Assembly (NCBI RefSeq): GCF_036242395.1
Contig: NZ_CP108458.1
Coordinates: forward strand, 8,308,001 to 8,372,000
Origin: Kitasatospora sp. NBC_01266
GTDB taxonomy: Bacteria; Actinomycetota; Actinomycetes; Streptomycetales; Streptomycetaceae
Length of the DNA: 64,000 nt
Direction: 5' to 3'
Part shown: piece by piece, positions 35,265-59,916 of the stretch
Layout of the letters: every line of letters begins with the position of its first letter
How positions within the stretch are numbered: the stretch's first letter is position 1
The notes under the pieces: generated by a model
Told to the model about the DNA's origin: nothing
What the model saw: only the letters and a program-made list of their open reading frames with translations
Databases searched by the model: none
Position numbers and translations under genes: made by a program

Positions 35265-35352
35265 TGAAGTTCCCCCGTTGATCTGGACAGCTTGATACTG
35301 GGACGGTTGAGTCCCGGAGGAAGCAGTCCAGGTAGTGCGTGGCAAGAGCAAC

Positions 35353-43728: not shown

Positions 43729-44846
43729 GGCTGGTTGCCTCCGGCAGGGTCGGCCAAGTCTTGGGCACGTGAGAGATACCGGTCGATCTGTGCGCGGGTG
43801 GCCAGGTCGGGGTCCAGGCCACGTCCGACCATGCGGTGCCATTCGACGGTCGCCGCCGCGGCCTCGTCCAGACCGAGGTGGTGGTCCCACGCGAGTTCGG
43901 CCGCGGCCCTGCGACCGTCCAGGCGGAGCACCGCCTCCTCGGTGAATCCGGGATCGGGTCGCGTCAGCAGGACGGAGCCGGGCGGCTCGGTCGCCCGCTG
44001 TCCGGTGCGTGCCCAGTGGTCGGCGAGAGCGGCGGCGAGTTCCCGAGCGGTGGCACCGTCGCCCGGAGGCGCGAAGTTGAACACGCGGCCGGCGGGCACC
44101 CGACCGGCCCTGAGAGCGTCGGCAAGGCGCAGCAGACCTGCCGTGACATCGAGGACGTGCTGCCAGGGGCGCACGCCGGACGCGTTGCGCAGCTGGATCG
44201 GAGCACCGGTGGCCAGGGCCGCGATCGTGTCGGGCACCAGTCGGTGCGCGGCGTGGTCGCCGCCCCCGATCACGTTGCCGAATCGTACGGAGGCGGCACG
44301 GGGCCCCTGGCCGTCGAAGAGGGCCGTGTACCCCTCGAAGACGATCTCCGCTGCCGCTTTGGAGATGCTGTAGGGACAGCCGCCACCGATCTCGTCGGTC
44401 TCCCGGTAGGGCCAGGGCCAGCCGAAGTTGCGGTAGCACTTGTCCGAGGTCACGTGAACGAGAACGCCGGGCCGGGCGTGGCGGGCCGCTTCCAGTACGT
44501 TGATGGATCCGCCGATGTTGGTGTCCAGCGTGGTCCGAGGATCCTCCAACCCGGCGCGGACCAGGGGTTGGGCCGCCAGGTGGAAGACGCTGTGATAGGG
44601 CGCCCCGCTCATCACCCGGTGAACGGCGTCGTAGTCCCGGATGTCCGCGACGTGGCTCGTGACGCCGTGGCGTGCCAGCCAGCCGTCGCGCGTGCGGGTC
44701 GCCGGGTCGGCGTTGAGGGCGATCCCCTCGACCTCGGCTCCGAGCCGACACAGGGTCAGGGCGAGCCAGGAACCGATGAATCCGCTGTGACCTGTGATCA
44801 GGACCCGGCGGCCGCGCCAGGATTCGTTCAGCTGGGTGTCGGCCAC
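43725..44846 (-). CDS. CDP-glucose 4,6-dehydratase
   Basis: This 373-residue extended SDR protein has RVLITGHSGFIGSWLALTL (NAD loop), the family block TSDKCYRNFGWPWPYRETDEIGGGCPYSISKAAAEIV with the catalytic Tyr-x3-Lys, and ASVRFGNVIGGGD. This block is diagnostic of CDP-glucose 4,6-dehydratases, which make CDP-4-keto-6-deoxyglucose from CDP-glucose. GTG 44846 follows AGAGGA. It overlaps the cytidylyltransferase gene by 19 bp, and both belong together. The sugar branch beyond this step is open: only an epimerase-like gene at 61643 could continue it. Confidence 0.9.
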   Translation of the reverse strand: MADTQLNESWRGRRVLITGHSGFIGSWLALTLCRLGAEVEGIALNADPATRTRDGWLARHGVTSHVADIRDYDAVHRVMSGAPYHSVFHLAAQPLVRAGLEDPRTTLDTNIGGSINVLEAARHARPGVLVHVTSDKCYRNFGWPWPYRETDEIGGGCPYSISKAAAEIVFEGYTALFDGQGPRAASVRFGNVIGGGDHAAHRLVPDTIAALATGAPIQLRNASGVRPWQHVLDVTAGLLRLADALRAGRVPAGRVFNFAPPGDGATARELAAALADHWARTGQRATEPPGSVLLTRPDPGFTEEAVLRLDGRRAAAELAWDHHLGLDEAAAATVEWHRMVGRGLDPDLATRAQIDRYLSRAQDLADPAGGNQP

Positions 44847-45628
44847 GGGAAGTCCTCTCGCCTGACGAGGTCCTCGACCTCGGTGAAGTCCTTGTAGGTG
44901 TCGACAGGGTGCCAACGGCCTTCGTGGACGACCGCCCGCACCTGGCCGTCGGCTGCCAGCCGGGGCAGGATGACGTCCTCGAGTTCCCCACCTGGTTCGG
45001 CCAGTTCCTCGAAGATGGCGGGAGTGCACAGGAAGTAGCCGGCGGAGATCAGTTCGGGGCGCAGGGGCTTCTCCTCGAAGGAGGTGACCATCGAGTCCGG
45101 TCCGACGGTCAGCTCGCCGTATCGCGCCCTGACCCGTGTCGCGGCCATCACGACCATGGCGCGGGTGGTCCGCTGCACAGTGAGCAGCCTGCCCAGATCG
45201 AAGTCGGAGAGGGTGTCGGCGTACCCCATGAAGAAGGAGCGTTCACCGATGTGGGTTCGGGCGTCCAGCAGGCGCCGGGACTTCTCCGCCAGCGGTCCGC
45301 TGTCCACCAGCGTCACTCGGACGGTGCTGGTGAACCGCGTCCAGCCCGGCCCCGACTCCACCGCGTGCGCGGGGACACCGAACTCGGCGAGGACGGCGCG
45401 GCGGACCGCGTCCGAGCCGTACCCCACGCAGAGGACGAACTCGCTCAAGCCGAAGGCGCGGTAGTAGTCGATGACGTGTAGCAGGAGGGTGCGTCCGTCC
45501 GGCAGGGGCCGCAGCGGTTTGGGGGTGTGGTCGTCGTGGGTGCGCTGGCGCAGGCCGAGGCCTCCGCACAGTAGAAGGACCGGTGGTCGGTCGTCCGTCC
45601 TCGTCGCGGGCCCCAGTATGGCCGTCAT
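44828..45628 (-). CDS. Glucose-1-phosphate cytidylyltransferase-like protein
   Basis: This 266-residue protein has the nucleotidyltransferase start PVLLLCGGLGLRQRTHDDHTPKPLRPL, then FGLSEFVLCVGYGSDAVRRAV, a metal site region FMGYADTLSDFDL and the end HEGRWHPVDTYKDFTEVEDL, all matching RfbF-type enzymes that make CDP-glucose. One odd feature is GGLGLR where GGLGTR is common. It feeds the dehydratase with which its gene overlaps. ATG 45628 follows GGAAAG. Confidence 0.87.
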   Translation of the reverse strand: MTAILGPATRTDDRPPVLLLCGGLGLRQRTHDDHTPKPLRPLPDGRTLLLHVIDYYRAFGLSEFVLCVGYGSDAVRRAVLAEFGVPAHAVESGPGWTRFTSTVRVTLVDSGPLAEKSRRLLDARTHIGERSFFMGYADTLSDFDLGRLLTVQRTTRAMVVMAATRVRARYGELTVGPDSMVTSFEEKPLRPELISAGYFLCTPAIFEELAEPGGELEDVILPRLAADGQVRAVVHEGRWHPVDTYKDFTEVEDLVRREDFPWPTPS

Positions 45629-45662: not shown

Positions 45663-47477
45663 CTATCGCAGGCCGGTGCGGTAGGCCTCCGCCTGGATCC
45701 CGTACAGCTGTGCGTAGTGCCCACCCAGCGCGATCAGTTGGTCGTGCGTGCCGAACTCCGTGGCGCGGGCGCCGTTCAGCACCAGGATCAAGTCGGCTGC
45801 CCGTACCGTGGAGAAGCGGTGCGACACCAGCAGGGTCACTCCGCCCGTGCCGGACCCGGCTCCGGTGCGGGCGGCCATGGTGTAGCGGTCGAAGAGCGCG
45901 TGCTCGGTCTCGGCGTCGACCGCGGAGGTCGGCTCGTCCAGGACGGTGAGCAGCGGCTGGTCGCGCATGAAGCCCCTGGCGAGGGCGACGCGCTGCCACT
46001 GGCCGTGCGAGAGGTCCACTCCCTGCGGCCAGCTGACGCCCAGCTGGGTGTGCACTCCTTCGGGCAGCGCCCGCGCGATGTCGCTCGCCGCTGCCTTCTC
46101 CAGCGCGGTGTCGACGGCGTCCGGCTGGTCCGCACGCGGGAGGTCGCCTATGCCGACCGAGAGCCGCAGCCGGAACTCGAACGCGAAGAAGTCCTGGAAG
46201 GTCCCGGTCACCCGACGGCGCCAGGACACCGGGTCGGTGCGCGCGAGGTCCTGACCGTCCAGGGTGATCCGCCCGGAGGTGGGTGTGTACAGGCCGCACA
46301 GCAGTTTGACCAGACTCGACTTCCCGGCGCCGTTCTCACCCACGACGGCGACCACGGCTCCGGCCGGGAGCAGGACGCTGACCTCGTCGAGGATCAGGCG
46401 ATCCGTCCCCGGGTAGGCGAAACTGACCGCATCGAGCCGGATGCCCTCGGACAGGCGCTCCGGTGCGGACCGGTCGGCTGCCACCAGGCGCTTCGCCGCG
46501 TAGTCCTCCAGCCAGGCCAGCTTGCGGGAGCAGTCCAGCCAGATGGTCCGGAAGAAGTGGATCTGCGTGATCGTCTGGCCGATGTAGCCGGAGAGCCGGC
46601 TGCCTGCGGCGAGGACGAGCAGCACGGCACCCGTGCGGTCCGCGGAGTGCGCCGCCGTATAGGCCACGGCCGCGATGAACGCCGCTCCGAACAGGGCCTG
46701 CGCGCCGGACTGCCAGGCCGCGCTGATCCAGCGGGCGCGGGCGAGCGGCCGGTGCCGCTGCTCCCATGCCCGGTGCCGCAGGCGCCGGACGAGCGGGCCG
46801 GTGCGGGCCACCCGCAGTTCCTTGCCCGCCACCGCGGAGGTGGCCAGCAGGAACAGGTGGCGGGCGAGCCGGTCGTGCCGCGCGCCGGCTTCTTCCACCC
46901 GCTTCTCCACCGCGGCGCGGCGGCCCGAGACGAGGACCGTCGGCAGCGGGAAGAGCCCGAGCAGCATCAGGAGCGGGTTCACCGAAGCCAGCAGGCCGAG
47001 GGTGATCGCCGCCCTGAGGAGGACACCGACGAGGCTGAACAGGTGCCGGTACAGGTCGCTCAGCGCCGAGGCGTGGTCGCGCAGCACGGAGATGCGATCG
47101 AGCTGGGCGGGCCGTTCGTGGTGCTCGATCGTGGACACGCCGGCCAGCAGCTCGGCGATGTGCGACTCGACGACGACGGCGGCCCGGTCCGCGAAGCGCT
47201 GGTTCACCCGTGTGCTCACCGTCTGCAGCAGCCAGTTTCCCGCTGCCATCGCCGCGAGGAGCCCCGAACTGGCCGCGAGCCCGGCGCCGCTCCCGGTGAT
47301 CACCGCGGTGGCGAAGGCGGCGAGTCCCCAGGCGAACATCGCGTCCGGCACGGCGCTGAGCGCCTCGGCGCAGAAGGCCGCGGCGATCATCGCCGGGCTG
47401 GAGCGCCAGCCCATGCGCAGGGAGCGTCCCAGGGATCGCCATGCTCCGGGCAGCGGATCGAGTTCGTCGGTGGTCAT
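45663..47477 (-). CDS. ABC exporter half-transporter (fused membrane and ATPase domains), first
   Basis: This 604-residue protein has six predicted membrane helices followed by an ATPase domain with Walker A GENGAGKSS, the signature LSHGQWQR, Walker B LLTVLDEPTS and the H-loop SHRFS. It is a type I exporter. Its start ATG 47477 overlaps the previous gene by four bases, so it should form a heterodimer with that protein. A likely job is export of the cluster product or self-resistance. Confidence 0.9.
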   Translation of the reverse strand: MTTDELDPLPGAWRSLGRSLRMGWRSSPAMIAAAFCAEALSAVPDAMFAWGLAAFATAVITGSGAGLAASSGLLAAMAAGNWLLQTVSTRVNQRFADRAAVVVESHIAELLAGVSTIEHHERPAQLDRISVLRDHASALSDLYRHLFSLVGVLLRAAITLGLLASVNPLLMLLGLFPLPTVLVSGRRAAVEKRVEEAGARHDRLARHLFLLATSAVAGKELRVARTGPLVRRLRHRAWEQRHRPLARARWISAAWQSGAQALFGAAFIAAVAYTAAHSADRTGAVLLVLAAGSRLSGYIGQTITQIHFFRTIWLDCSRKLAWLEDYAAKRLVAADRSAPERLSEGIRLDAVSFAYPGTDRLILDEVSVLLPAGAVVAVVGENGAGKSSLVKLLCGLYTPTSGRITLDGQDLARTDPVSWRRRVTGTFQDFFAFEFRLRLSVGIGDLPRADQPDAVDTALEKAAASDIARALPEGVHTQLGVSWPQGVDLSHGQWQRVALARGFMRDQPLLTVLDEPTSAVDAETEHALFDRYTMAARTGAGSGTGGVTLLVSHRFSTVRAADLILVLNGARATEFGTHDQLIALGGHYAQLYGIQAEAYRTGLR

Positions 47478-49393
47478 GGCCGGGCCTCCTCTGCGCGGTC
47501 GTCCTGGGCGGACCCGGCCGACCGGGTCGCCGGCACCAGGTCGTCCTCCGGCTCGGCATCCGTCGCCGGCACCAGGTCGTCCTCCGGCTCGGCACCCGTC
47601 GCCGGCGACTCGTCGAACCGGGAGGCCTGGAGGGTGTAGAGGTCGTGGTACCGGCCGCGCGCGGCCATCAGCTCGGCGTGGGTGCCGAGTTCGATGATCC
47701 GCCCCTGTTCGAGCACGCAGATCCGGTCGGCCTGGCGCACGGTGGAGAACCTGTGCGAGATCAGCAGGGTCGTCACGCCGCGCGTGGCGCGCAGGAGGCG
47801 CCCGAAGATCTCGGCCTCGGCGCGTACGTCGAGTTGTGCGGTGGGCTCGTCCAGGATCACCAGACCCGCCCCGGACCGCACCGCGGCCAGCGCCCGGGCG
47901 ATGGCCACGCGCTGCCACTGGCCGCCCGACAGGTCGGTACCACCCTCGTACTCGCGTGCGAGAACGGTGTCGAGCGGCGCGAGTCCGAGCCCGCCGGCCT
48001 CCCGCAGGGCAGCCTCGATGACTTCGTCGCTCGCTCCGTTCGGAGCGACGTTGTCCCGCAGCGGCAGGTGGTAGCGGAGGAAGTCCTGGAACACGGCCGC
48101 GACCTGCCCGCGCCAGGCCTCGAGGTCGAACTCGCGCAGATCGGTGCCGTCCACTTCGATGGCCCCGCCGGTGGGGTCGTGGAGTCGGCAGAGCAGCTTC
48201 GCCAGCGTGGTCTTGCCCGCCCCGTTGACGCCGACGACCGCGAGTGAGGTCCCTGCCTCGATGGTCAGGTCGACCCCGTCGAGGACCGGGCTCGCGCTGC
48301 CCGGATAGCGGAACTCGAGCCCGCGCAGCCGGATTCGAGAGGCGGGAAGACCGTCCGCCCGCTGCGTGCCCGACGGCAGTCGACCGGCCTCTGCCATGGA
48401 TTCCCGCAGCTCCAGGGCGGTGGCTACCGACTCGGCGGTGGGCGGCAGGGCCCAGTTGATCCCACCGAAGGCCACTGCGGAGACTCCGAGGGCGGCCTGG
48501 GCGAACATCGCCGCCCGGCCGACGGACAGCTCGCCGGCGGCCGCCTGCTGGGCCAGCGACCAGAACAGCAGTCCGTTGGCGGCCACGAGGACGAGCACCG
48601 CCCAGCGCAGCGGTCTGCGCCGCAGCCGGGTCGCCTGCCACCGCAGTTCGCCGAGCTTGCGGCGCTCCGCGGTGAACCGGGCCACGGTCCACTCGCTCAG
48701 CCCGAAGATCCGCAGTTCCTTGGCGGCCGGCGCGGCCACCGCGAGGCGGTAGGAGTAGTCCGCGTCGCGTTGCGCCGCGAGCACCTGAGCCTCACTCCGG
48801 TCCCAGGAACTGCTCTCCCGCAGCAACCAGTGCGTCGACAGCCATGCGCCGGCCAGCAGCGGGGCGGCCCACCAGCTGTAGTCGAGCAGGACCGCCGACT
48901 GCGCCAGCCCGGCGGCCGCCTCGACCAGGCCGCCGGAGATCAACCCGATCGCGATGATCATCGGCGGCCCGGACATCCCTTGGTCGAAGTCCTTGGCGAG
49001 CGCGAGGCGTTCGGCGAGTTCCCGGGACTCCAGGTGGGCGAGGGCGGGTGGTTCGGTCGAGGCACCCGCCAGGACGTCCTGCAGGCGATCGGACATTCGT
49101 TCGCCGAGGCTGCTGCTCACCTGGGCGTGCACCGGAGCGAGTAGTTGGATGAGCACGAACGCGACGCCGACCGCCACCAGCGGGTCGAGGTACGCCCGGT
49201 CGGCGTTGAGCGCCCCGATCAGCCCGCCGGTCAGGACCGTGAGGATCGCCGGCAGCATGCCGCGGCTCGCGATCAGGCACCACCAGGCGATGCCCAGGCG
49301 GAAGTCGGTCCGGGTGAGGAAGGCGAAGAGGACGAGTTCCTGCCGACGACGGATCGCGGCGATCACCGCTGCCTCGCGGTGAAAGGGGTACAC
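47474..49393 (-). CDS. ABC exporter half-transporter, second
   Basis: This 639-residue protein has an N-terminal membrane domain (LFAFLTRTDFRLGIAWWCLIASRGMLP then further helices) and an ATPase domain with Walker A GVNGAGKTT, signature LSGGQWQRVA, Walker B VILDEPTAQLD and H-loop SHRFS. Near the C-terminus a 12-residue unit (PATxAEPEDDLV) is repeated in tandem, encoded by a 36-bp repeat. The pair of half-transporters suggests a heterodimeric exporter in the cytoplasmic membrane. The 85 bp before the chorismate-lyase stop hold no gene. Confidence 0.9.
   Translation of the reverse strand: MYPFHREAAVIAAIRRRQELVLFAFLTRTDFRLGIAWWCLIASRGMLPAILTVLTGGLIGALNADRAYLDPLVAVGVAFVLIQLLAPVHAQVSSSLGERMSDRLQDVLAGASTEPPALAHLESRELAERLALAKDFDQGMSGPPMIIAIGLISGGLVEAAAGLAQSAVLLDYSWWAAPLLAGAWLSTHWLLRESSSWDRSEAQVLAAQRDADYSYRLAVAAPAAKELRIFGLSEWTVARFTAERRKLGELRWQATRLRRRPLRWAVLVLVAANGLLFWSLAQQAAAGELSVGRAAMFAQAALGVSAVAFGGINWALPPTAESVATALELRESMAEAGRLPSGTQRADGLPASRIRLRGLEFRYPGSASPVLDGVDLTIEAGTSLAVVGVNGAGKTTLAKLLCRLHDPTGGAIEVDGTDLREFDLEAWRGQVAAVFQDFLRYHLPLRDNVAPNGASDEVIEAALREAGGLGLAPLDTVLAREYEGGTDLSGGQWQRVAIARALAAVRSGAGLVILDEPTAQLDVRAEAEIFGRLLRATRGVTTLLISHRFSTVRQADRICVLEQGRIIELGTHAELMAARGRYHDLYTLQASRFDESPATGAEPEDDLVPATDAEPEDDLVPATRSAGSAQDDRAEEARP
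47526..47606. repeat. 36-bp tandem repeat in the exporter gene's 3' end
   Basis: Two full 36-bp units (47526-47561, 47562-47597) differ by one base and are followed by a 9-base partial copy. They encode the repeated acidic linker at the C-terminus of the second ABC exporter. Confidence 0.85.
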
Positions 49394-49478: not shown

Positions 49479-50093
49479 TCACCTGGTGGTCGTGGACTGG
49501 GGCTCGCCCGGGCCCGGAGGGTCGCCCAGCCGCAGGCAGGCGGCGGTGAAGACCTCGCCCACGACCATCGCGGGGCGGCCGCCGATGAACACCCGGTAGA
49601 CGCGCAGGGCGCCGGTCACCGCCTGATCCGGTCCGCGGGGCGCCGCCGCCTCCTTGGCGCCGTCCAGCGGGTCGGGGGCCTCGCCTGCGAACAGCGCGCG
49701 ACTGAACAGGAGTTCGCGGAAGGTCTCGACCCGCCATCGGCGCAGGACCCGGCCGATCGGCTCGGCGGTCGTGGTGAGGTCCCGGTGGACCGGTCCGGGC
49801 AACGTCTCAGCCGCGAGCACGGACCGTGCGCGCACCAGGGTCGTGCCGGAGCTGGCGCCGACCAGCAGCGTGGACCGGTTCAGGACGGAGCCGGAGCCGA
49901 TGCCGTCCGCCAGGGCCGCCAGGGCCCCGGCGGGCGCGGGACCGCCGTGGTGCAGGGCGGCGAGGCGGATCGCCTCGCCGGCCAGTTCCTCCAGCAGCGT
50001 GGTGACGGTTCCGTCGCTGGTCACGAGCATCCGGCCGAACGGGCTCAGCCGGCCAGGGGGCAGGTGTCCCGCCGGCGTTCCGGCGGCTCTCAC
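49479..50093 (-). CDS. Chorismate-lyase-family (UbiC/DUF98-like) protein
   Basis: This 204-residue protein has the pattern of the actinobacterial chorismate lyase family: MLVTSDGTVTTLLEELAGEAIRLAAL, then VLNRSTLLVGASSGTTLVRARSVLAAETLPG and IGRVLRRWRVETFRELL. Such enzymes split chorismate into pyruvate and 4-hydroxybenzoate. The stop-start overlap with the ligase gene (50090-50093) and the ACP gene beside it suggest that the product is the acid activated by the ligase. The reaction itself is inferred from the family. Confidence 0.75.
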   Translation of the reverse strand: MRAAGTPAGHLPPGRLSPFGRMLVTSDGTVTTLLEELAGEAIRLAALHHGGPAPAGALAALADGIGSGSVLNRSTLLVGASSGTTLVRARSVLAAETLPGPVHRDLTTTAEPIGRVLRRWRVETFRELLFSRALFAGEAPDPLDGAKEAAAPRGPDQAVTGALRVYRVFIGGRPAMVVGEVFTAACLRLGDPPGPGEPQSTTTR

Positions 50094-51517
50094 CGGGAGT
50101 CCCGTACCGGCCGTGCGCGCAGCGCCTTTCCGGTGGCCGACCGCGGGATGTGGTCAACCGGTTCGAAGGCGCGCGGCATCTGATGGGGAGCCAGCTCGGC
50201 GCGGCACCACTCGATGAGTTCACCCGCCACGGCACCGGGTCGCAGCACGACCCGGGCGACCGGCACTTCGCCACGCACCTCATCGGCCAGGGCGCAGACG
50301 GACACGTCGAGGACACCCGGGTGTTGGGAGATCACCCGTTCCACCTCACCCGGAGAGACCTTCTCACCGGCGACGTTGATGACGGCGGCCGACCGGCCGA
50401 GCAGTGTCAGCCGACCCGGTGAGACGCCTGACCACTGGGCCAGATCGCCCGTGCGGTACCAGCCGTCAGGGTCGGAGACGGGCAGCAGCCGGTTGCGCGT
50501 CCCAGGCCCGAAGCGCCCCAGGGCGAGTGAGGAGGTCCGCACCTGGAGCTCCCCGCCGTCGAGCCGGACCCGCACACCGGGCAGCGGCTCCCCGATGTCA
50601 CCGGGTTCCTGGCCGCGGTCGACACGGGAGAGGGTCATCGCTCCCGCTTCGGAGGAGCCGTAGCAGTTGTAGAGCGGCAACTCCAGGGCGTTCCCCGGGC
50701 GTTGTTGGACGACCGGTGGCAGTGCCGCCCCGGCCGAGACCGCGGCGTTCAACCGGGCCAGGTCCTGGACGGTCGCCCCTTGCCGGCCCGTCCCCTGCGC
50801 CAGCAGGCCGTAGTGGGCCGGCAGCGCGATCAGGGTCCGGGCGTCAAGTGCTCGAACCGCCGCGGCGTACGTCGAGGGCAGGCACCTGCTCGGCAGCAGC
50901 CGTACGGGGGCACCCGCCACGAGTGGTGCGATGAGGCCGTAGTTGAAACCGTAGGCGTGGAACACGGGCGCGGCGCAGACCACCGGCGCTCCGGGCTCGT
51001 AGCCGAGGAAGTCCGCGACCCGCCGCGCGTCCGCGAGCACGGCGGCGCGGGACCGGACGACCGCCATCGGCGTTCCGGTCGAACCGGAGGTGAAGAAGAC
51101 CTGCGCGTCGGGCGGTAGTTCAGTCGCCGGCTCCAGGCCGTCGGCGGCGGCGGCGCGGACGAGGCCGAGGAACGGTGACTCCTGAGTACCGGGCCGGGCC
51201 GGCCGTTCGGTTCCGGCCGGCCCGGCCCCGTCGCGCACGGCCGGCCCGGACGGACCCGCCGCGGTCGCCGGGTCCCGGTGCAGCAGTGGGATTCCGGCCC
51301 GGTCCGCGGCGAGCGTGAGCAGAGCCGTGGCCACCGGATCGTCGGACTCGACGACGACGGCGCTGCCCGAGTAACGACGTGCCAGTGCCTCCGACAGCTC
51401 CGTCGCCGTGAGCAGCAGTTCGTCCCGGCTCCAGGAACGGTCGCCGGCGATCAGCGCGGGATCGGTGGAGCTGCCGGCGGCCGCGGCGACCGCGGCGAAG
51501 ATTCCCGGCGAGTTCAT
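50090..51517 (-). CDS. Acyl-AMP ligase (ANL superfamily)
   Basis: This 475-residue protein has adenylation motifs FFTSGSTGTPMAVV (phosphate loop), YNCYGSSEAG, WYRTGD, GRSAAVINVAGEKVSPGEVE and a C-terminal catalytic lysine in PRSATGKALR. It activates a carboxylic acid as acyl-AMP and passes it to a thiol, here most likely the ACP encoded next to it. Its length is shorter than stand-alone NRPS domains. ATG 51517 follows AGGAG. The context suggests a hydroxybenzoate substrate; the pocket residues were not analysed. Confidence 0.87.
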   Translation of the reverse strand: MNSPGIFAAVAAAAGSSTDPALIAGDRSWSRDELLLTATELSEALARRYSGSAVVVESDDPVATALLTLAADRAGIPLLHRDPATAAGPSGPAVRDGAGPAGTERPARPGTQESPFLGLVRAAAADGLEPATELPPDAQVFFTSGSTGTPMAVVRSRAAVLADARRVADFLGYEPGAPVVCAAPVFHAYGFNYGLIAPLVAGAPVRLLPSRCLPSTYAAAVRALDARTLIALPAHYGLLAQGTGRQGATVQDLARLNAAVSAGAALPPVVQQRPGNALELPLYNCYGSSEAGAMTLSRVDRGQEPGDIGEPLPGVRVRLDGGELQVRTSSLALGRFGPGTRNRLLPVSDPDGWYRTGDLAQWSGVSPGRLTLLGRSAAVINVAGEKVSPGEVERVISQHPGVLDVSVCALADEVRGEVPVARVVLRPGAVAGELIEWCRAELAPHQMPRAFEPVDHIPRSATGKALRARPVRDSR

Positions 51518-51563
51518 GACGACTCCTGGAGTGCGGTTTCGGCTGGGCGACGGACCGGGCCGG

Positions 51564-51815
51564 TCAGCCGCGCGCGACGATGTAGTCGGCGATCTTCGCG
51601 GGCGTGCTGAAGCTCTCCACCGTGAGCTCCTCGTCCGGAATGGTGAGGGAGAACTCCCCCTCGATCCAGACCAGGAGTTCCAGGACACCGAGCGAGTCGA
51701 ACTCGGCATAGTCGCGCAGGTCCGTATCGGCCTCCGGAGAGCTGCCGCGTAGCGCGGGAATCACCTCCTGGAGGCGCAGCGAGATCGCATCGAGGACTTC
51801 CTGACGTTCTGCCAT
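51564..51815 (-). CDS. Acyl carrier protein
   Basis: This 83-residue acidic protein has the phosphopantetheine attachment motif FDSLGVLELLVWIEGEF, with Ser at about residue 41, and the usual four-helix pattern ending STPAKIADYIVARG. It starts at ATG 51815 and its stop lies 46 bp before the ligase start. It should carry the acyl group activated by the neighbouring ligase. It is a free-standing ACP; no ketosynthase or NRPS module is visible in the window. Confidence 0.9.
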   Translation of the reverse strand: MAERQEVLDAISLRLQEVIPALRGSSPEADTDLRDYAEFDSLGVLELLVWIEGEFSLTIPDEELTVESFSTPAKIADYIVARG

Positions 51816-51879
51816 TCTCTTTGACTACCTGTCTCGTTGGGGGTGGGTGGGAGGGAGGTGGCCGAGCCGGGGTTCGTGT

Positions 51880-52785
51880 TCAGATCGCCGGGGTGAACGA
51901 CCGCTCGGCGCTGCGCACGGCTGACAGCAGCGCGCGGTACGAGGCGGCGGCGGGCCCTTCCGGCAGCAGGTCCTTCCAGGGCTTCGCCGGGCTCGCGAAG
52001 TGCAGCACCGCGGACGTCTCCTCCAACCGGACGAGGTCCTGCAAGGGCATCAGGTCCTGCGTGGTGTACCGGACCCAGGGCGTGCGGACCAGTGCCGACA
52101 GCGGAAAGGCGTTCCAGTGCGGCTCCAACCGCTTCCACCGGTCTTGTGCGGCCCAGTTGAGTGCGTCCTGGTCCCAGAGCCGGATGTGCTCCGGATGGGC
52201 CGCGATGAACTCGATCGCCCGGGCGAAGAGCCGCTCCTCGCGGCAGGCGGCCGGGTCGATCAGCAGCACGCCGGAATTGAAGTACTCCTGCTCGGGAGGG
52301 ATCCCGAGCTTGGACCAGCCGGGCAGGGCTCGCCCCCGTCCGACGACCGGGTTGAGCGGATCCCGTACGGCTCCCAGCGGCCGGCCGTCGAGTTCGGTGC
52401 CGAACAGTGCGCTGAGGTCCCCGCGGATGACGAGGTCCGCGTCGAGATACAGGACCCGCTCGCGGTCGAGGTACATCTCGGGTATGACCAGCCGCAGGTA
52501 ATTGGCATGAGCCCCGCCGAACGCGGTCGGATAGCGGATCGGCTCCAGGTGCACGGGGCGCAACCTCACTCGCAGGCCGAGGAGTTCCGCGTGCCACCGT
52601 AAACGCTCGATCGTCAGCGGTGAGAGCTCCTCGTAGAGCAGGTCGATCTGCAGCCGGTCGGTCAGTTCGGCATTCGACGCACGGAGCGAGTGCCACGCCA
52701 CGGTCAGCGGAAGGCTGTAGGACTCGTCGATGGCGAAGACGATTTGAGTCGGTTCTCCATCGTTCGAAGGCATTGGCTTGGGCAC
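51880..52785 (-). CDS. GT8-family glycosyltransferase
   Basis: This 301-residue protein shows GT8 landmarks in order: IVFAIDESYSLPLTVAWHSLRASN, NYLRLVIPEMYLDRERVLYLDADLVIRGDL with the metal-binding DAD, EYFNSGVLLIDPAAC, LWDQDALNWA and HFASPAKPWKD. GT8 enzymes are retaining and use UDP-glucose or UDP-galactose. GTG 52785 follows GGGGGAAAG at a good distance; ATG 52773 is possible. It is the first gene of the leftward operon and is directly controlled by the shared promoter region. Confidence 0.88.
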   Translation of the reverse strand: MPKPMPSNDGEPTQIVFAIDESYSLPLTVAWHSLRASNAELTDRLQIDLLYEELSPLTIERLRWHAELLGLRVRLRPVHLEPIRYPTAFGGAHANYLRLVIPEMYLDRERVLYLDADLVIRGDLSALFGTELDGRPLGAVRDPLNPVVGRGRALPGWSKLGIPPEQEYFNSGVLLIDPAACREERLFARAIEFIAAHPEHIRLWDQDALNWAAQDRWKRLEPHWNAFPLSALVRTPWVRYTTQDLMPLQDLVRLEETSAVLHFASPAKPWKDLLPEGPAAASYRALLSAVRSAERSFTPAI

Positions 52786-52922
52786 AGGCGCTTTCCCCCG
52801 GATTCAATGCAAAGGACGGTTCCGCAGCGAACGTCGCCGGGTCTCGCTCCACCGGCTCCCGTCACCCGGCTGCTGCCGCAACGACGGTTCCACCCACGTC
52901 ATCTGACTGTTCGTCTCGTCAT

Positions 52923-52946
52923 GTGAGCGGTCACGTGAACCTTCAC
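52923..52946. promoter_or_regulatory. Left tandem operator: two GTGA-N4-TCAC palindromes
   Basis: GTGAGCGGTCAC (52923-52934) and GTGAACCTTCAC (52935-52946) lie head to tail directly downstream of the leftward -10 box, so a bound protein would cover the transcription start. The right side carries the mirror arrangement. Confidence 0.7.
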
Positions 52947-52949
52947 GGA

Positions 52950-52978
52950 ACTATGATCCAGCCGCCAGTAGCTGTCAA
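52950..52978 (-). promoter_or_regulatory. Leftward promoter of the GT8-ACP-ligase-exporter operon
   Basis: On the minus strand TTGACA (52973-52978) and CATAGT (52950-52955) are separated by 17 bp. This is close to the sigma-70 type consensus of main sigma factors in actinobacteria. It drives the operon that starts at 52785. Confidence 0.7.
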
Positions 52979-53031
52979 TAGCCGCATGCGGAGCATGTAT
53001 AGCCCGATGCTGTCGTCGAGATCCGAACTGA

Positions 53032-53061
53032 TTGACAGTGCAGCGCGCCTCGGGTCATAGT
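53032..53061 (+). promoter_or_regulatory. Rightward promoter of the transglutaminase-like operon
   Basis: TTGACA (53032-53037) and CATAGT (53056-53061) are separated by 18 bp. The boxes are the same as in the leftward promoter. The start codon of the first gene is 231 bp downstream, leaving a long 5' leader. Confidence 0.7.
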
Positions 53062-53064
53062 GCC

Positions 53065-53088
53065 GTGAACGATCACGTGACCGTTCAC
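53065..53088. promoter_or_regulatory. Right tandem operator: two GTGA-N4-TCAC palindromes
   Basis: GTGAACGATCAC (53065-53076) and GTGACCGTTCAC (53077-53088) stand directly after the rightward -10 box. Four such units exist in total around the two promoters. The binding protein is not identified; no regulator gene is adjacent. Confidence 0.7.
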
Positions 53089-53291
53089 GTGACGATCATG
53101 CGCTCGCTCCAGCAGCCGCTCCGCCTGGCCGGCGCAGACTCCGGGATCCGCCGGAGTCGTACCGAGGCCCTTTCGCTGCGGACCGGCAACCGGGCCGCGC
53201 CGCAGTGCGCCGCGCGGCGGACCCGCTCACCACCTTGCCTCGCCGCAGGAACCGGTCGCGTTCCGAGCAAGTCACGAGAATCGAGGGAGTC

Positions 53292-54269
53292 ATGACACGG
53301 CCTCACACGGCGCGGGCTGCCCGGCTGCTCCCCGCGCCCCGTCCCGACTCGCCGGCGCGAGCAACGGGCCGGCCCGCCGGCCGGCTCGCCGAGATCGTCG
53401 CCCGGGTCCGCCATGTGCCCGACCGCTACCGCGAGTTCCGGCAGGACGGGCACCGGGCAACCCGTGAACACGGCATCATCCCTGCCCTGCTGGGGGAACT
53501 CGGCGATGTCGGGCTGCCTTCCCTGGTCCGTGACGGCGTCAGGTACTTCGACCAGATCGATCTGGCCAACGTCGCCCTGGCGTTGCGCCTGCCCAACGCG
53601 CGCACCCTGGCGATGCGCGGCTGGGCGAACTCGCTGCGCGCCACGTCCGGCGCGGCCGCCGGCTCGTTCGAGGTCGAGGTGCGGGCGCACTGTCCGCAGC
53701 CCGGACACCCCGGTGAGTGCGAGTACACGCGCAGCGAGGCCCTGCGCTCCCTCGCCGGGTACACGCCGGCCGCCGCCTCCGACACCGGGCAGCTGCGCCA
53801 CCGGGTTGCGCGGCCCATGACCGAGGGGCGGCTGCCCGACGCGCTCGCGAGCCTGTTCCGGCCGCTGCGTTTCCACCTGCTCCCGGAGCCGCTGCGCGCC
53901 GATCTCGGATTCCTGGCCGAGACCAATCTCGCCGACTGCGACCTCGCCGCCCTGTACCTGACGCGCGAGGCCGGCCGACTCGGCCTCGCGGCCCGCTACA
54001 GCTACGGGTTCTTCCTCGCCGCGCCGTACTCCATCATCCACACGTGGACGGAGGTGCTCGACGGTGGGGAATGGCACGCATTCGACCCGCACCTCCTCAA
54101 CCTCCTCGGCGACTGGTCGCTGCTCGACCCCGAGGAGTGGCCGCCGCACCGGTCCATCGGGAGCTGCACGGCGCGCGTCAGCGACCACGACGTCTGGCTG
54201 ACGACACATCACGGGGCCTGCGCTCCGCTGTCGCTCGCCACTCGCCGGGTCGAGGAGGACGCCAGATGA
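53292..54269 (+). CDS. Transglutaminase-like protein
   Basis: This 325-residue protein has the Cys-His-Asp triad of the transglutaminase fold: Cys in ETNLADCDLAALYL, His in SIIHTWTEVLDG and Asp in WHAFDPHLLNLL. ATG 53292 follows GGGAG. In andrimid biosynthesis AdmF, a transglutaminase homologue, joins carrier-bound acyl groups to amines. With a free ACP and ligase in the same cluster an amide-forming role is plausible but inferred. It starts the rightward operon and overlaps the next gene (ATGA). Confidence 0.8.
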   Translation: MTRPHTARAARLLPAPRPDSPARATGRPAGRLAEIVARVRHVPDRYREFRQDGHRATREHGIIPALLGELGDVGLPSLVRDGVRYFDQIDLANVALALRLPNARTLAMRGWANSLRATSGAAAGSFEVEVRAHCPQPGHPGECEYTRSEALRSLAGYTPAAASDTGQLRHRVARPMTEGRLPDALASLFRPLRFHLLPEPLRADLGFLAETNLADCDLAALYLTREAGRLGLAARYSYGFFLAAPYSIIHTWTEVLDGGEWHAFDPHLLNLLGDWSLLDPEEWPPHRSIGSCTARVSDHDVWLTTHHGACAPLSLATRRVEEDAR

Positions 54270-55396
54270 GCAGCCGATCGGAGCTGCCGGACGGGCGGAT
54301 CACGGGCACGCCGGTCCGGATCGTCCTCGTCGGCGCCGGCGCGATGGGGCAGGCCTGGGCCCGAGCGCTGCACAAGCACCCCCGTTGCCGGCTCGCGGCG
54401 ATCGTGGACAGCGATCCGCGTCGGGCGCGGGGGCTGGCGCTGCGCCTGCGCCTGCCGGAACTGCCCGTCAGCGCGACGCTGGAGTCGCTACCGGGACCGG
54501 CGGCGGACGCCTGCGTCAATGCCACTCCTCCGCAGGTCCACCGGTCGGTGATCACTGAGGCCCTCACCAGCGGCCTGTCGGTACTGACCGAGAAGCCCTT
54601 CGCCATGGATCTCGACCAGGCGGCCGAGCTGACCGGGACAGCCGCGCGCCACGGCCGGTTGTTGATGGTCAGTCAGTCTCGGAGCCTCCAGCCGGGGGCG
54701 GACGCCTTCCGAACGGCCGTCGGCCGGCTGGGCGGTCTGCACAGGCTGGAGGCACGCTTCAGTCGCGGCTACCCCGCGGAAGGGTTCCGTTCGGAGTTGG
54801 ACCAGCCGCTGCTGCGCGACATGGCGGTGCACGCCTTCGACACGGCCCGGATGCTGACCGGAAGCGATGCGGACTCCGTCTACTGCGACGCTCCCGCGCG
54901 CCCCCGCTCGGGATACCGCGGTCCGGCCGAAGCGATCGCGCTGTTCACCATGCTGGACGGTTCGCGCTTCCTCTACCAAGGCAGTTGGTGCGCTCCGGCG
55001 ATGCCCACCGCCTGGAGCGGTCGCTGGCGGGCGACGGGTCCGCACGGCACCGCGACGTGGACGGGGGCGGGGACGGTCCGGTTGGCGCTCGTGAGCGGTG
55101 CGGGGGTGTCGTCCCGGGAGGCGGGAGCGGACCACGAGCCCGCCTCGGACGAGGACGGGAGGATCGTGGCCCAGGTCGATGACCAGGGGTTCGACCGGGA
55201 CCCGGTGCGCCAGGTGGCAGCGCCGCTCGAGGAGTTCCTCGACGCCCTGGCCACCGGAGCACCGGGCTGGGGCAGCGCCCGGAACAACCTCGCGACGATG
55301 GCGATGCTCGATGCCGCGATCGCGTCCGCGCGTTGCGGCGCTCCGGTCGCGGTCGTGCCGGGCGCGGCGCGGATTCCCGCCGGACGGGGCGACTGA
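54266..55396 (+). CDS. Gfo/Idh/MocA-family oxidoreductase
   Basis: This 376-residue protein has the NAD(P) loop VLVGAGAMGQAWARAL (about residues 19-34), VDSDPRRARGLA and the family motif TEKPFAMD in which Lys is catalytic. The C-terminal half is the alpha/beta substrate domain. Family members oxidise or reduce sugar or cyclitol carbonyls, so a role in sugar or ketone tailoring fits. The stop overlaps the amidase start (TGATG). Confidence 0.87.
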   Translation: MSSRSELPDGRITGTPVRIVLVGAGAMGQAWARALHKHPRCRLAAIVDSDPRRARGLALRLRLPELPVSATLESLPGPAADACVNATPPQVHRSVITEALTSGLSVLTEKPFAMDLDQAAELTGTAARHGRLLMVSQSRSLQPGADAFRTAVGRLGGLHRLEARFSRGYPAEGFRSELDQPLLRDMAVHAFDTARMLTGSDADSVYCDAPARPRSGYRGPAEAIALFTMLDGSRFLYQGSWCAPAMPTAWSGRWRATGPHGTATWTGAGTVRLALVSGAGVSSREAGADHEPASDEDGRIVAQVDDQGFDRDPVRQVAAPLEEFLDALATGAPGWGSARNNLATMAMLDAAIASARCGAPVAVVPGAARIPAGRGD

Positions 55397-56238
55397 TGCG
55401 CCTGGCTCTGGTCCAGGCCCCCGCCGCGCCAGGTGATCCGCAGGAGAACCTCAGGCGCGGGCTGGCGCTGTGCGAGGACGCCAAAGCCGACGGTGCCGAC
55501 CTCGTGGTCTTTCCCGAACTGTGGCAGACCGGGTACGCCCCCTGCCCGACCGACGCGGCGGGGGAGCAGCGGTGGCGCGACCTGGCCACCTCGGTCCACG
55601 CCCCCTGGCTGGGAGCCTTCCGGGAGGCCGCGCGGAGCTTGGGCCTCGCCGTCGTCACGACCTACATGGAGGCGCACGGCACGGGCCTGAGCAACGCGGC
55701 GGCCGTCATCGACGCGGCCGGACGGGTCGTGGACGTCTACCGGAAGGTCCACGTCTGCGACTTCTTGTGGGAGCGGGTCTTCACACCCGGGCGCAGGTTC
55801 GCCGCCGCGACCGTGGAGACGGTCGCCGGTCCCCTCAGGATCGGCGTCATCATCTGCTTCGACCGCGAGCAGCCGGAGGCCTGCCGGGCGCTCGCGCTGG
55901 ACGGAGCGGAACTCATCGTCTGCCCGAACGCCTCCCTGCTGTGCGACGACCGGATCGGACAGGTCAGGGCTCGGGCGTTCGAGAACTCGGTGGCGGTCGC
56001 GGTGGCCAACTACCCGCTGCCGAGGATGAACGGGCGCTCCTGCCTGTTCGACGGGCGGGCCGTGCACCAAAACCGACCGCGCGACCACACGATCGCGCTC
56101 GCCGACGGCCGCAGCCGGCTCGTCCTCGCGGATCTGGACCTCACGGCACTGCGTGAGTACCGCACCGGTTCGATCTGGGGCGCGGCGCACCGGCGGCCGG
56201 CGGCCTATGCCTCTTTGACCCAGGGAGTGGCCCGATGA
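55396..56238 (+). CDS. Carbon-nitrogen hydrolase (nitrilase superfamily)
   Basis: This 280-residue protein has the complete Glu-Lys-Cys triad: Glu in VVFPELWQTGY, Lys in VYRKVHVCDF and Cys in GVIICFDREQPE. The family hydrolyses nitriles, amides and carbamoyl groups or, in reverse, makes amides. Its place between oxidoreductases in the operon suggests an amide or nitrile step, or removal of a protecting group. The C-terminal end overlaps the next gene by four bases. Confidence 0.88.
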   Translation: MRLALVQAPAAPGDPQENLRRGLALCEDAKADGADLVVFPELWQTGYAPCPTDAAGEQRWRDLATSVHAPWLGAFREAARSLGLAVVTTYMEAHGTGLSNAAAVIDAAGRVVDVYRKVHVCDFLWERVFTPGRRFAAATVETVAGPLRIGVIICFDREQPEACRALALDGAELIVCPNASLLCDDRIGQVRARAFENSVAVAVANYPLPRMNGRSCLFDGRAVHQNRPRDHTIALADGRSRLVLADLDLTALREYRTGSIWGAAHRRPAAYASLTQGVAR

Positions 56239-57173
56239 CCCGGTCAGCTGCGATCCGGCCCTTCCGCTTCGGCGTGCTCGCCGGCGGTGCCGCCGACGTC
56301 GCGCAGTGGGAGGCGCTGAGCCGGCGGTGTGAGGAGTACGGATACAGCTCGTTCCTCGTCCCCGACCACCTGAACCGCGAGTGGGGCCCACTCGTCGCCC
56401 TGGCCCTCGCGGCGCGGGCGACCCGGTCGATCGCACTGGGCCCGCTCATGCTCGGCGCCGCCCTGCGGCAACCATCGGTGCTCTACAAGGAGTTGGCCAC
56501 GCTCGACCTCGTGGCTCCCGGGCGCCTGGAGATCGGAGTGGGCGCGGGATGGCTGGCGTCGGACTTCAGCCGCGCCGGCGTCGAGATGGAGCCCGGTGCC
56601 GCCAGGATCCGCCAAGCCGTGGAGGCGGTGACGGTCCTGCGCCGGCTCTGGAACGAAGGAAGCGCCACCTTCCTGGGGAGCTCCCACCGGGTCCTCGACG
56701 CGGTCGGCGAGCCCCGGCCGAGCGCGGCCCGCTGGACGATGGGTGGCGGTGGACCCCGGATGTTGCGCGCGGCCGCCGAACAGGCCGACATCGTCTCCTT
56801 CTCCGCCCAGCTCTCCTCCGGCACCAAGGACAACCGGTTCGGTCCTTCCGCGCGGGCGGCCGAGTTCGACAGGCGGGTGCGCTGGGTGAGGGAGGCCGGG
56901 CCGGCCGCGGACCCGCCGGAGTTCCAGTGCCTGCTCTTCGCCGCCGCCATCTGCGCTTCCAGTACGCGCTACGCCGAGCGGGTCCTCACCCACATGTTCG
57001 GCCTCCCGCCCGCGGAGGCACTGGACTCCCCGCTGGCACTGGCGGGCAGTGTGGCCGAGGTCTGCGAGCGCCTCGAGGAGCGGCGGCAGCGGTACGGGAT
57101 CTCCTACTGGGTGCTCCCCGGTGCCCAGGCGGACGCGTTCGCACCGGTGGTCGAGCGACTGGCCGGCAAGTGA
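56235..57173 (+). CDS. Luciferase-like (LLM class) flavin/F420-dependent oxidoreductase
   Basis: This 312-residue protein has the TIM-barrel LLM pattern: YGYSSFLVPDHLNREWGPLVALALAARATRSIALGPLMLGAALRQPSVLYKELATLDLVAPGRLEIGVGAGW and TMGGGGPRMLRAAAEQADIV. Members use FMN or F420 for oxidations and reductions. The sequence alone does not say which cofactor is used. It overlaps the amidase gene by ATGA and precedes the carbamoyltransferase. Confidence 0.87.
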   Translation: MTRSAAIRPFRFGVLAGGAADVAQWEALSRRCEEYGYSSFLVPDHLNREWGPLVALALAARATRSIALGPLMLGAALRQPSVLYKELATLDLVAPGRLEIGVGAGWLASDFSRAGVEMEPGAARIRQAVEAVTVLRRLWNEGSATFLGSSHRVLDAVGEPRPSAARWTMGGGGPRMLRAAAEQADIVSFSAQLSSGTKDNRFGPSARAAEFDRRVRWVREAGPAADPPEFQCLLFAAAICASSTRYAERVLTHMFGLPPAEALDSPLALAGSVAEVCERLEERRQRYGISYWVLPGAQADAFAPVVERLAGK

Positions 57174-57205: not shown

Positions 57206-58855
57206 TTGCGCGTCCTAGGACTGGGCGGATCACACCACGACTTCTGCGCCGCCTTGGTGGCGGACGGTCAGGTCGTGTCGGCCATCGAGGAGGAGCGGCT
57301 CACCCGGGTGAAGATCGCTTACGGACTCGGGCCGCGCCTGCAGCAGTGCCTCGCGGCGGAGTACGTGCTGAACGCGGCGGGAGTCACCGCGGACGAGGTC
57401 GACCTCGTGATCGCCAACGACTTCGTCAATCCCGTCTACACCCTTCGACTGCGGGACCGGGTGCGGTGGATGGGGCACCACCTCGCCCACGCGGCGAGCA
57501 CCTTCTACACCTCGCCCTTCGAGCGGGCCGCCGTGCTGGTCATGGACGGCCGCGGATCGACCGTGGTCGAGCAGGGCCGGCTGCACGGTGAGACGGTGAC
57601 CTGCTACCAGGCCGGGCCCGGCGGCCTCGAGGTGCTGCGCGCGCAGCACGGCCGCGTCACCCTGACGGACCGGCGGTCCGAGGACCCTTACGAGGACTCG
57701 GTGGGCTGGATGTACGAGGCGGTGTCCAAGGCCATCGGCCTGTTCACCACCGGAGGCATGGGAGCGCCGGGCAAGACCATGGGGCTGGCCGCCTACGGGA
57801 CGCCGCGCTACGTCGCGCGACTGGGGGAGTTCTTCCGGCTCTCCGCCGGAGAGTTCCGTCAGTCCACCGCCCAGCAGATCGCCATGCGCTCCTTCATCGA
57901 CCGGGAGCTCGCCGAGGCCGGTGACGCGGTCGAGGGCCAGGCCCGGCGGGCCGACCTCGCCTACGCGGTCCAGCACCACACCGAGCGGATAGTGATCGAG
58001 TTCGCTCGCTGGCTGCACCGGCGCACCGGTCTGACCGACCTGTGCCTGGCGGGCGGGGTGGCCCTCAACAGCGTGGCGAACTACAAGCTCCTGTCGGAGA
58101 CGGGGTTCGAACGGGTACACGTGGTCCCGGCCGCGGGCGACGGCGGGACGGCGATCGGCTCGGCCCTGTACGGGTACCACGAACTGGGCGGGCACCCGTG
58201 GAAGCCGGCACCGCAACCGTTCTCCCCCTACCTCGGCCGCGCGTACGGGGCGGACCGGATCGAGGCGGCGCTTGCCGCCGAGTCCGGCCGGCTGCGCGTC
58301 CTGCGTCCGGACGACCCGTACTCCCTGGTGGCCCGCGAGCTCGCCGGTGGAGCGATCGTCGGCTGGTTCCAGGGCCGGTCGGAGGCGGGCCCGCGGGCCC
58401 TGGGGAACCGCAGCATCCTCGCGGACGCCCGGGATCCGGGGATGAAGGACCGCATCAACGCCAGGGTCAAGCACCGCGAGCCGTTCCGACCGTTCGCCCC
58501 GATCGTTCTGGAGTCCCGCCAGGCCGAGTACTTCACCACCACCGTGCCGGCCCCCTACATGCTCATGGTCCCGGACGTGCGGAAAGAGATGCGTGCGGTC
58601 ATCCCGGCCGTCACCCACGAGGACGGCTCGGCCCGGCTCCAGACGGTGCTGCGGGCGCTCAACCCCCGCCTGGACGCCCTGCTGGCCGCCTTCGACGCCC
58701 TCACCGGCGTTCCCGTGCTGCTCAACACCTCGTTCAACGACAACGAGGAGCCGATCGTCGAGACACCCGAGGACGCCGTGCGCTGCTTCCTCAAGACCCA
58801 GATCGACGTCCTGGTGCTCGGTGACCTCGTCGCCTACAAGACCGCGGTCTCGTGA
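57206..58855 (+). CDS. Carbamoyltransferase (NodU/TobZ family)
   Basis: TTG 57206 stands four bases after an AGGAGG site. The 549-residue protein opens with RVLGLGGSHHDFCAALVADGQVVSAIEEERLTRVK, has the metal-binding histidine pair in MGHHLAHAASTFYTSPF, LCLAGGVALNSVANYKL, and a C-terminal part with FRPFAPIVL. This is the Kae1-like plus YrdC-like plan of O-carbamoyltransferases, which use carbamoyl phosphate and ATP to carbamoylate a hydroxyl group, usually of a sugar or macrolide. The final product should therefore carry a carbamate. Confidence 0.9.
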   Translation: MRVLGLGGSHHDFCAALVADGQVVSAIEEERLTRVKIAYGLGPRLQQCLAAEYVLNAAGVTADEVDLVIANDFVNPVYTLRLRDRVRWMGHHLAHAASTFYTSPFERAAVLVMDGRGSTVVEQGRLHGETVTCYQAGPGGLEVLRAQHGRVTLTDRRSEDPYEDSVGWMYEAVSKAIGLFTTGGMGAPGKTMGLAAYGTPRYVARLGEFFRLSAGEFRQSTAQQIAMRSFIDRELAEAGDAVEGQARRADLAYAVQHHTERIVIEFARWLHRRTGLTDLCLAGGVALNSVANYKLLSETGFERVHVVPAAGDGGTAIGSALYGYHELGGHPWKPAPQPFSPYLGRAYGADRIEAALAAESGRLRVLRPDDPYSLVARELAGGAIVGWFQGRSEAGPRALGNRSILADARDPGMKDRINARVKHREPFRPFAPIVLESRQAEYFTTTVPAPYMLMVPDVRKEMRAVIPAVTHEDGSARLQTVLRALNPRLDALLAAFDALTGVPVLLNTSFNDNEEPIVETPEDAVRCFLKTQIDVLVLGDLVAYKTAVS

Positions 58856-59916
58856 CCGGCGAGTCGGCGGCGATCGACGCGCTGTGCGCGCTGGTCGGAC
58901 CGACGGACCGGCAGGCCGGCCGGCTCGGGGCGCTGCGGCTGCGGACCCTGGCGCGTCCGCACGGAGCGCTCGGCCGACTCGACGACCTGGTGCCCAGGAT
59001 CGCGATGATCCGCAGCGATCCCGACCCCGGGCCGCTGCCCGCGCTCGTCAGCGTGCTGGCGGCCGACCACGGGCTGGCCCGGCGCGCGGTCTCGGCACTG
59101 CCGCAGCCTGCCGGGGGGCGGGTGCTCGCCCTCGTGCAATCGGGCCGGGCGCCGCTGAACCTGATCGCCGACCGGGTGCCCGCGCGAGTCGTCAGTGCGG
59201 ACTTCGGTCTCGTCGAGCCGGTCGGCGAAGCGGAGTTCCGGATGGGAGCGGGTACCGAGGACATCTGCCTGCGTGACGCGATGACGCGTGCCGACGCCGA
59301 ACGCGCGGTGCTGAGCGGTGCCCGGTTCCTCCGGAGCCGGTTGGGGGAGGAGACGATGGTCGCCGTCGGTGAGATCGGCGTCGGGAACACGACCGCGGCC
59401 GCCGCGCTGACGGGCAGGCTGCTGGAGCTTCCGGTGGCCGCGGTGGTGGGAGCCGGGTCGGGCGTGGACCCGGCCGCAGTGGCACGCAAGCACGCGTTGG
59501 TCGAACGAGCACTGATCCGCACCGCGGGCCTTCCCGGGACGGACACCCTGGCGCAGCTCGCCGCCCTCGGCGGCTACGAGATCGCCGGGAACGTCGGAGT
59601 GATCCTCGCCGCCGCCGCGGCGCGCCGGGTGGTCGTCCTCGACGGATTCATCACCGCGGTCGCCGCCCTCATCGCGGTCCGGCTCTGTCCGCCGGTCGGC
59701 CACTACCTGGTGGCCGCCCACCGTTCGGCGGAGCCGGGCCACCGCCCGCTGCTCCAGGCGCTCGGGCTGGACCCGCTGCTGGACCTGGGCCTGCGCCTGG
59801 GCGTGGCGAGCGGTGCCGCCCTCGCCCTGGGTCTGGTCAACACCACGCTGGAACTCGCCCATCGGACGCCGCGGGCCCGTGATGTGGGTCTCGCCCTGCC
59901 TGCGGAGGACGGATGA
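58852..59916 (+). CDS. CobT-like nicotinate mononucleotide:base phosphoribosyltransferase with altered active site
   Basis: The 354-residue protein keeps the CobT landmarks: PHGALGRLDDL, AADHGLARRAVSALPQ, VGEIGVGNTTAAAAL (phosphoribosyl site), LGGYEIAGNVGVILAAA, VVLDGFITAVAAL and AAHRSAEPGHRPLLQALGLDPLLDLGLRLG. At about residue 318 it reads RLGVASG where CobT enzymes have RLGEGSG, so the catalytic glutamate (Glu317 in Salmonella CobT) is a valine. CobT enzymes move phosphoribose from nicotinate mononucleotide to a base; ArsAB relatives use phenols. Overlaps the carbamoyltransferase by GTGA. Confidence 0.88.
   Translation: MTGESAAIDALCALVGPTDRQAGRLGALRLRTLARPHGALGRLDDLVPRIAMIRSDPDPGPLPALVSVLAADHGLARRAVSALPQPAGGRVLALVQSGRAPLNLIADRVPARVVSADFGLVEPVGEAEFRMGAGTEDICLRDAMTRADAERAVLSGARFLRSRLGEETMVAVGEIGVGNTTAAAALTGRLLELPVAAVVGAGSGVDPAAVARKHALVERALIRTAGLPGTDTLAQLAALGGYEIAGNVGVILAAAAARRVVVLDGFITAVAALIAVRLCPPVGHYLVAAHRSAEPGHRPLLQALGLDPLLDLGLRLGVASGAALALGLVNTTLELAHRTPRARDVGLALPAEDG

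Follow-up and report, generated by a model that had tools for sequence, protein, structure and literature searches.

A probable carrier-coupled transglutaminase-like enzyme in a candidate 4-hydroxybenzoate pathway of Kitasatospora sp. NBC_01266

Genes and operators at the locus

This report concerns a transglutaminase-fold protein, TG1, and the genes around it in a 64,000-nucleotide stretch (C1:8308001-8372000, contig NZ_CP108458.1; here called the window) of the 8.57-Mb genome of Kitasatospora sp. NBC_01266. Three neighbouring minus-strand genes encode a free acyl carrier protein (ACP1), an AMP ligase of the aryl-acid type and a chorismate lyase; TG1 is the first gene of a divergent plus-strand operon. 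All four lie where an earlier analysis of the DNA alone (the sequence-only reading) had placed them. The minus operon is headed by a family GT8 glycosyltransferase gene, which the title of that reading, naming the ACP, ligase, lyase and transglutaminase, omitted. The end of the window falls inside the cluster, which extends approximately 10 kb further. The main features are as follows, all in window coordinates.

49479..50093, minus strand: Rv2949c/UbiC-type chorismate lyase, 4-hydroxybenzoate supply (PF01947, 28.6 bits against a curated cut-off of 22)
50090..51517, minus strand: acyl-AMP ligase of the benzoate / 4-chlorobenzoate-CoA ligase type (PF00501 and PF13193)
51564..51815, minus strand: free acyl carrier protein ACP1 (PF00550, 37.3 bits; FDSLG phosphopantetheine site)
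52919..52950: tandem operator of GTGANCGNTCAC repeats, downstream of the minus-strand promoter TTGACA-17-CATAGT (52978-52950)
53061..53092: tandem operator of GTGANCGNTCAC repeats, downstream of the plus-strand promoter TTGACA-18-CATAGT (53032-53061)
53292..54269, plus strand: TG1, transglutaminase-like protein, putative carrier-dependent amide synthase (triad, fold, Transglut_core)
66807-66850 (L003:14807-14850), just past the window: tandem GTGANCGNTCAC operator directly upstream of a lacI-type gene
70394-72991, past the window end: protein with a ketosynthase between two carrier domains (ACP-KS-ACP)
72994-73911, past the window end: TG2, a second transglutaminase-like gene

The intergenic region contains two divergent promoter-like sites, against a mean of 0.0 in shuffled sequences. 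When the whole genome was searched for the 24-base tandem operator with at most one mismatch, the only matches were those at the two divergent promoters and the one preceding the lacI-type gene; the reversed control pattern gave no genome match. This distribution argues that the minus and plus operons are very likely co-regulated as one regulon.

Versions of the cluster are present in four genomes: that of the window, Kitasatospora sp. A2-31, Streptomyces hainanensis DSM 41900 and Nocardiopsis coralli HNM0947. The other three clusters all contain TG1, ACP1, the ligase, the chorismate lyase, the CobT-like gene, the carbamoyltransferase, the nucleotidyltransferase, the cytochrome P450 and the ABC pair. 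The common operator and this four-cluster conservation bear out the earlier proposal that TG1 belongs to the same pathway as ACP1, the ligase and the lyase.

TG1 and its link to carrier proteins

Chorismate lyase matches were found in four of the four clusters. The nearest relatives of the ligase among solved structures are the 4-chlorobenzoate and benzoate CoA ligases, and both its pocket motif, H(A/V)YGFNYGL, and its C-terminal catalytic lysine (GK) are kept in the four orthologues. A longer ligase open reading frame (ORF) reaches 51709, but its extra part crosses the ACP gene out of frame. The lyase score, the ligase motif and the nearest ligase relatives fit 4-hydroxybenzoate as the acid but fall short of proof. 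The DSLG of ACP1 is invariant across its four orthologues, and the ligase is likely to load the aryl acid onto this carrier.

The best start of TG1 is the ATG at 53292, preceded by GAGGGAG. The full-length long ORF gave no Pfam match even at an E value of 10; trimmed to the likely start, it matched Transglut_core (PF01841) with an E value of 9.5e-4 and 19.9 bits, against a curated cut-off of 23. Transglut_core was matched by 13 of 14 members of the TG family (best E value 4e-9), and the N. coralli member, at 24.6 bits, exceeds the cut-off. Cys215, His249 and Asp264 (numbering of alignment A1) are invariant in all 14 sequences.

The AlphaFold model of TG1 (pLDDT 84.6) has the transglutaminase (papain/transglutaminase) fold, with fold matches aligning mainly to residues 178-300. 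The top structural match was 3isr, annotated as a putative cysteine protease (Z 9.5, 176 residues), and others included TglA (Z 8.6, 116 residues) and the transglutaminase 4xz7 (Z 7.0, 111 residues). Comparison with the geldanamycin amide synthase GdmF gave Z 6.8 and a root-mean-square deviation of 2.8 over 105 residues, and arylamine N-acetyltransferases scored approximately Z 6. Such Z values show the fold and not the reaction. A search of the TG profile against the sequences of solved structures gave no meaningful match. The triad, the modelled fold and the family-wide Transglut_core matches together support the transglutaminase-like assignment made in the sequence-only reading.

The TG1 orthologue of N. 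coralli is fused to a PP-binding domain in a single 412-residue protein (L055:14729-15964), scoring 24.6 bits for Transglut_core and 46.9 bits for PP-binding. The ACP part of this fusion shares 47% identity with the C-terminal ACP of the KS module. The fusion gene is followed by a second, divergent transglutaminase-like ORF.

The neighbourhoods of more distant relatives were also compared. An AMP-ligase gene lies within approximately 10 kb in 10 of 11 further TG family loci (L026-L036), and both an AMP ligase and an ACP in 7 of the 11. A small control of 20 random 20-kb stretches, placed at round positions in five of these genomes, contained neither the ligase nor the ligase with ACP (Fisher P = 2e-7 for the ligase and 1e-4 for the ligase with ACP). 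One of the 11 loci is a non-ribosomal peptide synthetase (NRPS) locus. Another carrier-linked context is found at L027:5121-9943, where a distant TG relative has LuxC-/LuxE-like genes, a short-chain dehydrogenase/reductase (SDR), an AMP ligase and an ACP as neighbours.

The TG-ACP fusion and the AMP-ligase neighbours of the relatives support TG1 as a carrier-dependent acyltransferase, and by analogy it is probably an amide synthase. AdmF, a transglutaminase homologue from the andrimid pathway, is reported to form an amide from carrier-bound acyl groups, and TG1 had been proposed to release its product in the same way. The carrier half of that proposal is supported by the fusion and by the ligases and ACPs near relatives; amide formation is likely, on the analogy with AdmF. 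A carrier-coupled transglutaminase-like enzyme within a 4-hydroxybenzoate pathway is well supported.

Candidate pathways

The pathway that we infer, including the substrate, the amide bond, the order of steps and the choice between TG1 and TG2 for the aryl chain, would occupy one end of a natural-product cluster. Chorismate lyase would yield 4-hydroxybenzoate, which the AMP ligase would activate and load onto ACP1. The acyl group would be used directly, or would first be extended by the ACP-KS-ACP module. Cys215 of the Cys-His-Asp triad of TG1 would then accept the carrier-bound acyl group and hand it to an amine to give an amide, as AdmF does. TG2, encoded directly after the KS module, might make a second or alternative bond of the same kind. 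Glycosyl-, carbamoyl- and oxidative steps would decorate the product, and the ABC pair would export it. We consider loading on ACP1 followed by TG1 amide formation, with or without extension, to be a moderately probable course.

A number of observations weigh against this scheme. Transglutaminase folds include proteases and hydrolases, and the annotation of 3isr falls in this group; we know of no member of the TG1 family with a tested enzyme activity; no amine partner was found for TG1; and the analogy of TG1 with AdmF is one of role. The SDR, KS module and TG2 genes have no GTGANCGNTCAC tandem operator, and are linked to the window genes by conservation and closeness. N. coralli lacks an ACP-KS-ACP orthologue: its other matches are ordinary KS domains (at most 42%), and within its cluster the sole match is the ACP fused to TG. 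Either the order of steps differs in N. coralli, or the KS lies off the direct route. The fold shared with cysteine hydrolases, the 3isr annotation and the missing amine partner would also suit a TG1 that is a hydrolase (thioesterase-like proofreading, or off-loading of a free acid) or that moves acyl groups from carrier to carrier. We regard this as quite unlikely in view of the AdmF precedent, the occurrence of the same fold in known amide synthases and N-acyltransferases, and the finding of no other amide-forming gene among the scanned cluster genes.

The sequence-only reading also stated that no NRPS condensation domain is present, and made TG1 the natural candidate for joining an aryl acid to an amine. 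The first statement holds among the window genes scanned, approximately 37 kb to the window end, but assembly-line machinery does exist outside: the ACP-KS-ACP module and TG2 lie 6-10 kb past the window, and its apparent absence was an effect of the window edge. TG1 keeps its place in the pathway but not its natural-candidate status, as TG2 is an equal candidate and the acid may be extended. With the KS module and TG2 so close, direct joining of unextended 4-hydroxybenzoate is one option among others, and an extended chain, instead of 4-hydroxybenzoate, may be the acid that is released. If TG1 did join 4-hydroxybenzoyl-ACP1 directly to an amine, the KS module would serve another part of the molecule. 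The single operator common to ACP1, ligase, chorismate lyase and TG1 would be explained, as would N. coralli, which has all four genes without a KS module. Against this, TG1 lies directly beside the KS module in two clusters, A2-31 (gene order ABC-ABC-TG1-KS module-TG2) and S. hainanensis, and the fused ACP of N. coralli resembles the C-terminal ACP of the KS module and not ACP1; we find direct joining possible but rather doubtful. Similar doubt attaches to a route in which the ACP-KS-ACP protein extends the aryl chain, TG2 makes the aryl amide and TG1 a different bond. The active-site motifs of the KS are intact, and TG2 (53% identical between the two genomes) lies directly 3′ of the KS module in both the window genome and A2-31, but S. 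hainanensis has the KS module with only one TG found nearby, of the TG1 type.

Other cluster genes and known systems

From 52785 downwards the minus strand carries the genes for GT8, ACP1, AMP ligase, chorismate lyase, two ABC proteins, nucleotidyltransferase, sugar dehydratase and GT4. On the plus strand from 53292 the order is TG1, MocA-type oxidoreductase, carbon-nitrogen hydrolase, F420-type luciferase-like oxidoreductase, carbamoyltransferase, CobT-like phosphoribosyltransferase, HAD phosphatase, 2-oxoglutarate/Fe(II) oxygenase, epimerase and P450. Beyond the window follow a split transketolase, the LacI-type regulator, the SDR, another luciferase-like oxidoreductase, the ACP-KS-ACP protein and TG2. 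The transketolase is divided into N- and C-terminal halves as two genes (L003:11789-13470) directly 3′ of the P450 gene.

42445..45628, minus strand: GT4 glycosyltransferase, sugar 4,6-dehydratase-like and nucleotidyltransferase genes (PF13692, PF01370, PF00483)
45663..49393, minus strand: ABC exporter pair (45663-47414 and 47474-49393; PF00005), kept in all four clusters
51880..52785, minus strand: GT8 family glycosyltransferase, head of the minus operon (PF01501, 134 bits)
54266..55396, plus strand: Gfo/Idh/MocA oxidoreductase (PF01408), kept in S. hainanensis and N. coralli
55396..56238, plus strand: carbon-nitrogen hydrolase (PF00795), Glu-Lys-Cys motif intact by alignment
56235..57173, plus strand: F420-dependent luciferase-like oxidoreductase (TIGR03621, over the curated cut-off)
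57254..58855, plus strand: carbamoyltransferase (PF16861 and PF02543), 66-75% identical to counterparts in the other three clusters
58852..59916, plus strand: CobT-like phosphoribosyltransferase without the catalytic Glu (PF02277)
59913..60578, plus strand: HAD phosphatase (PF13419), paired with the CobT-like gene and adjoining it in A2-31 too
60591..61646, plus strand: 2-oxoglutarate/Fe(II) oxygenase (PF03171), orthologues in A2-31 and S. hainanensis
61643..62578, plus strand: nucleotide-sugar epimerase/dehydratase (PF01370)
62575..63795, plus strand: cytochrome P450 (PF00067), matches in four of four clusters

The nucleotidyltransferase is present in all four clusters and the GT4 and dehydratase genes in three; these genes possibly form a CDP-glucose (cytidine diphosphate) route, CDP being an assignment that we infer. 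The nitrilase-type carbon-nitrogen hydrolase was considered as an amide former and rejected, as its motif is that of an ordinary hydrolase. GT8 orthologues adjoin ACP1 in S. hainanensis and N. coralli, which share the GT8, MocA-type and hydrolase genes with the window. A2-31 has in their place two aminotransferases, a second ligase and ACP, and a KASIII-like gene, a replacement which suggests that the amine part of its product differs. Integrase-core and IS4/5-type transposase genes lie on the left side (35292-36551 and 39443-40273), and a 584-residue ORF on the right (L004:9783-11495) looks transposase-like by eye, without a family search; these may mark the cluster borders.

The CobT-like protein shares 54-60% identity with the corresponding proteins of the other three clusters and 37% with another CobT encoded in the genome; its gene is distinct from two other CobT matches there. 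It scored 278.5 bits against the CobT equivalog TIGR03160, under the curated 319.3. The general-base glutamate is E317 of Salmonella CobT (PMC9561151). At this position the window protein has Val and the other three clusters Met (RLGVASGA and RLGMASGA against RLGEGTGA), whereas the glutamate is kept in ArsA and two other aligned CobT copies. The cluster enzyme is thus a clear PF02277 member, matching ArsA, which acts on phenols, but differs from CobT and ArsAB in the replaced general base. Loss of Glu317 suggests a repurposed vitamin B12 enzyme, and that it ribosylates a phenol, or some other acceptor, is a guess.

The four clusters appear to encode a family of sugar-decorated natural products that is undescribed, in the sense that literature searches, which did not include MIBiG, found no paper on this cluster. 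Glycocinnamoylspermidine antibiotics were weighed as a possible product, but the literature retrieved on them had no biosynthesis content. A new product class, in which the Glu-less CobT ribosylates 4-hydroxybenzoate and the glycosylated, carbamoylated product is released as an amide by carrier-coupled transglutaminases, including the TG-ACP fusion, is a speculative and rather unlikely proposal. The cluster family could nevertheless encode a new glycosylated aryl-amide scaffold together with a repurposed B12 enzyme. To our knowledge, few amide synthases of the transglutaminase-like type that act on carrier proteins have been characterised. At this locus the catalytic residues are conserved across a recognisable family, a fusion indicates the carrier partner, the operator is defined and there is a likely candidate for the starter acid, which makes function directly testable.

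In hygromycin A and A201A biosynthesis, chorismate-derived 4-hydroxybenzoate is activated by an aryl acid ligase and extended by a polyketide synthase (PKS), the phenol receives a sugar and an amide is made to an amine. The pathway proposed for the present cluster shares this scheme of 4-hydroxybenzoate, ligase, extension, sugar and amide, a likeness of pathway and not of sequence; we know of no transglutaminase-like enzyme or CobT-like gene in those pathways. With GdmF and the arylamine N-acyltransferases, TG1 shares the core fold (Z 5-7 over approximately 105-111 residues) and, by analogy, cysteine-based acyl transfer to an amine. It differs from them in its N-terminal part and is 10-18% identical; GdmF, moreover, closes a macrolactam from a PKS. 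In andrimid-class clusters a transglutaminase-like gene accompanies the valine-adding NRPS (PMC13151354). TG1 resembles AdmF in being a separate transglutaminase-like protein that is encoded together with carrier proteins in one cluster, a likeness of role and not of sequence, but its cluster is actinobacterial and aryl-acid based, and has sugar genes, two TG paralogues and, in one relative, a TG-ACP fusion.

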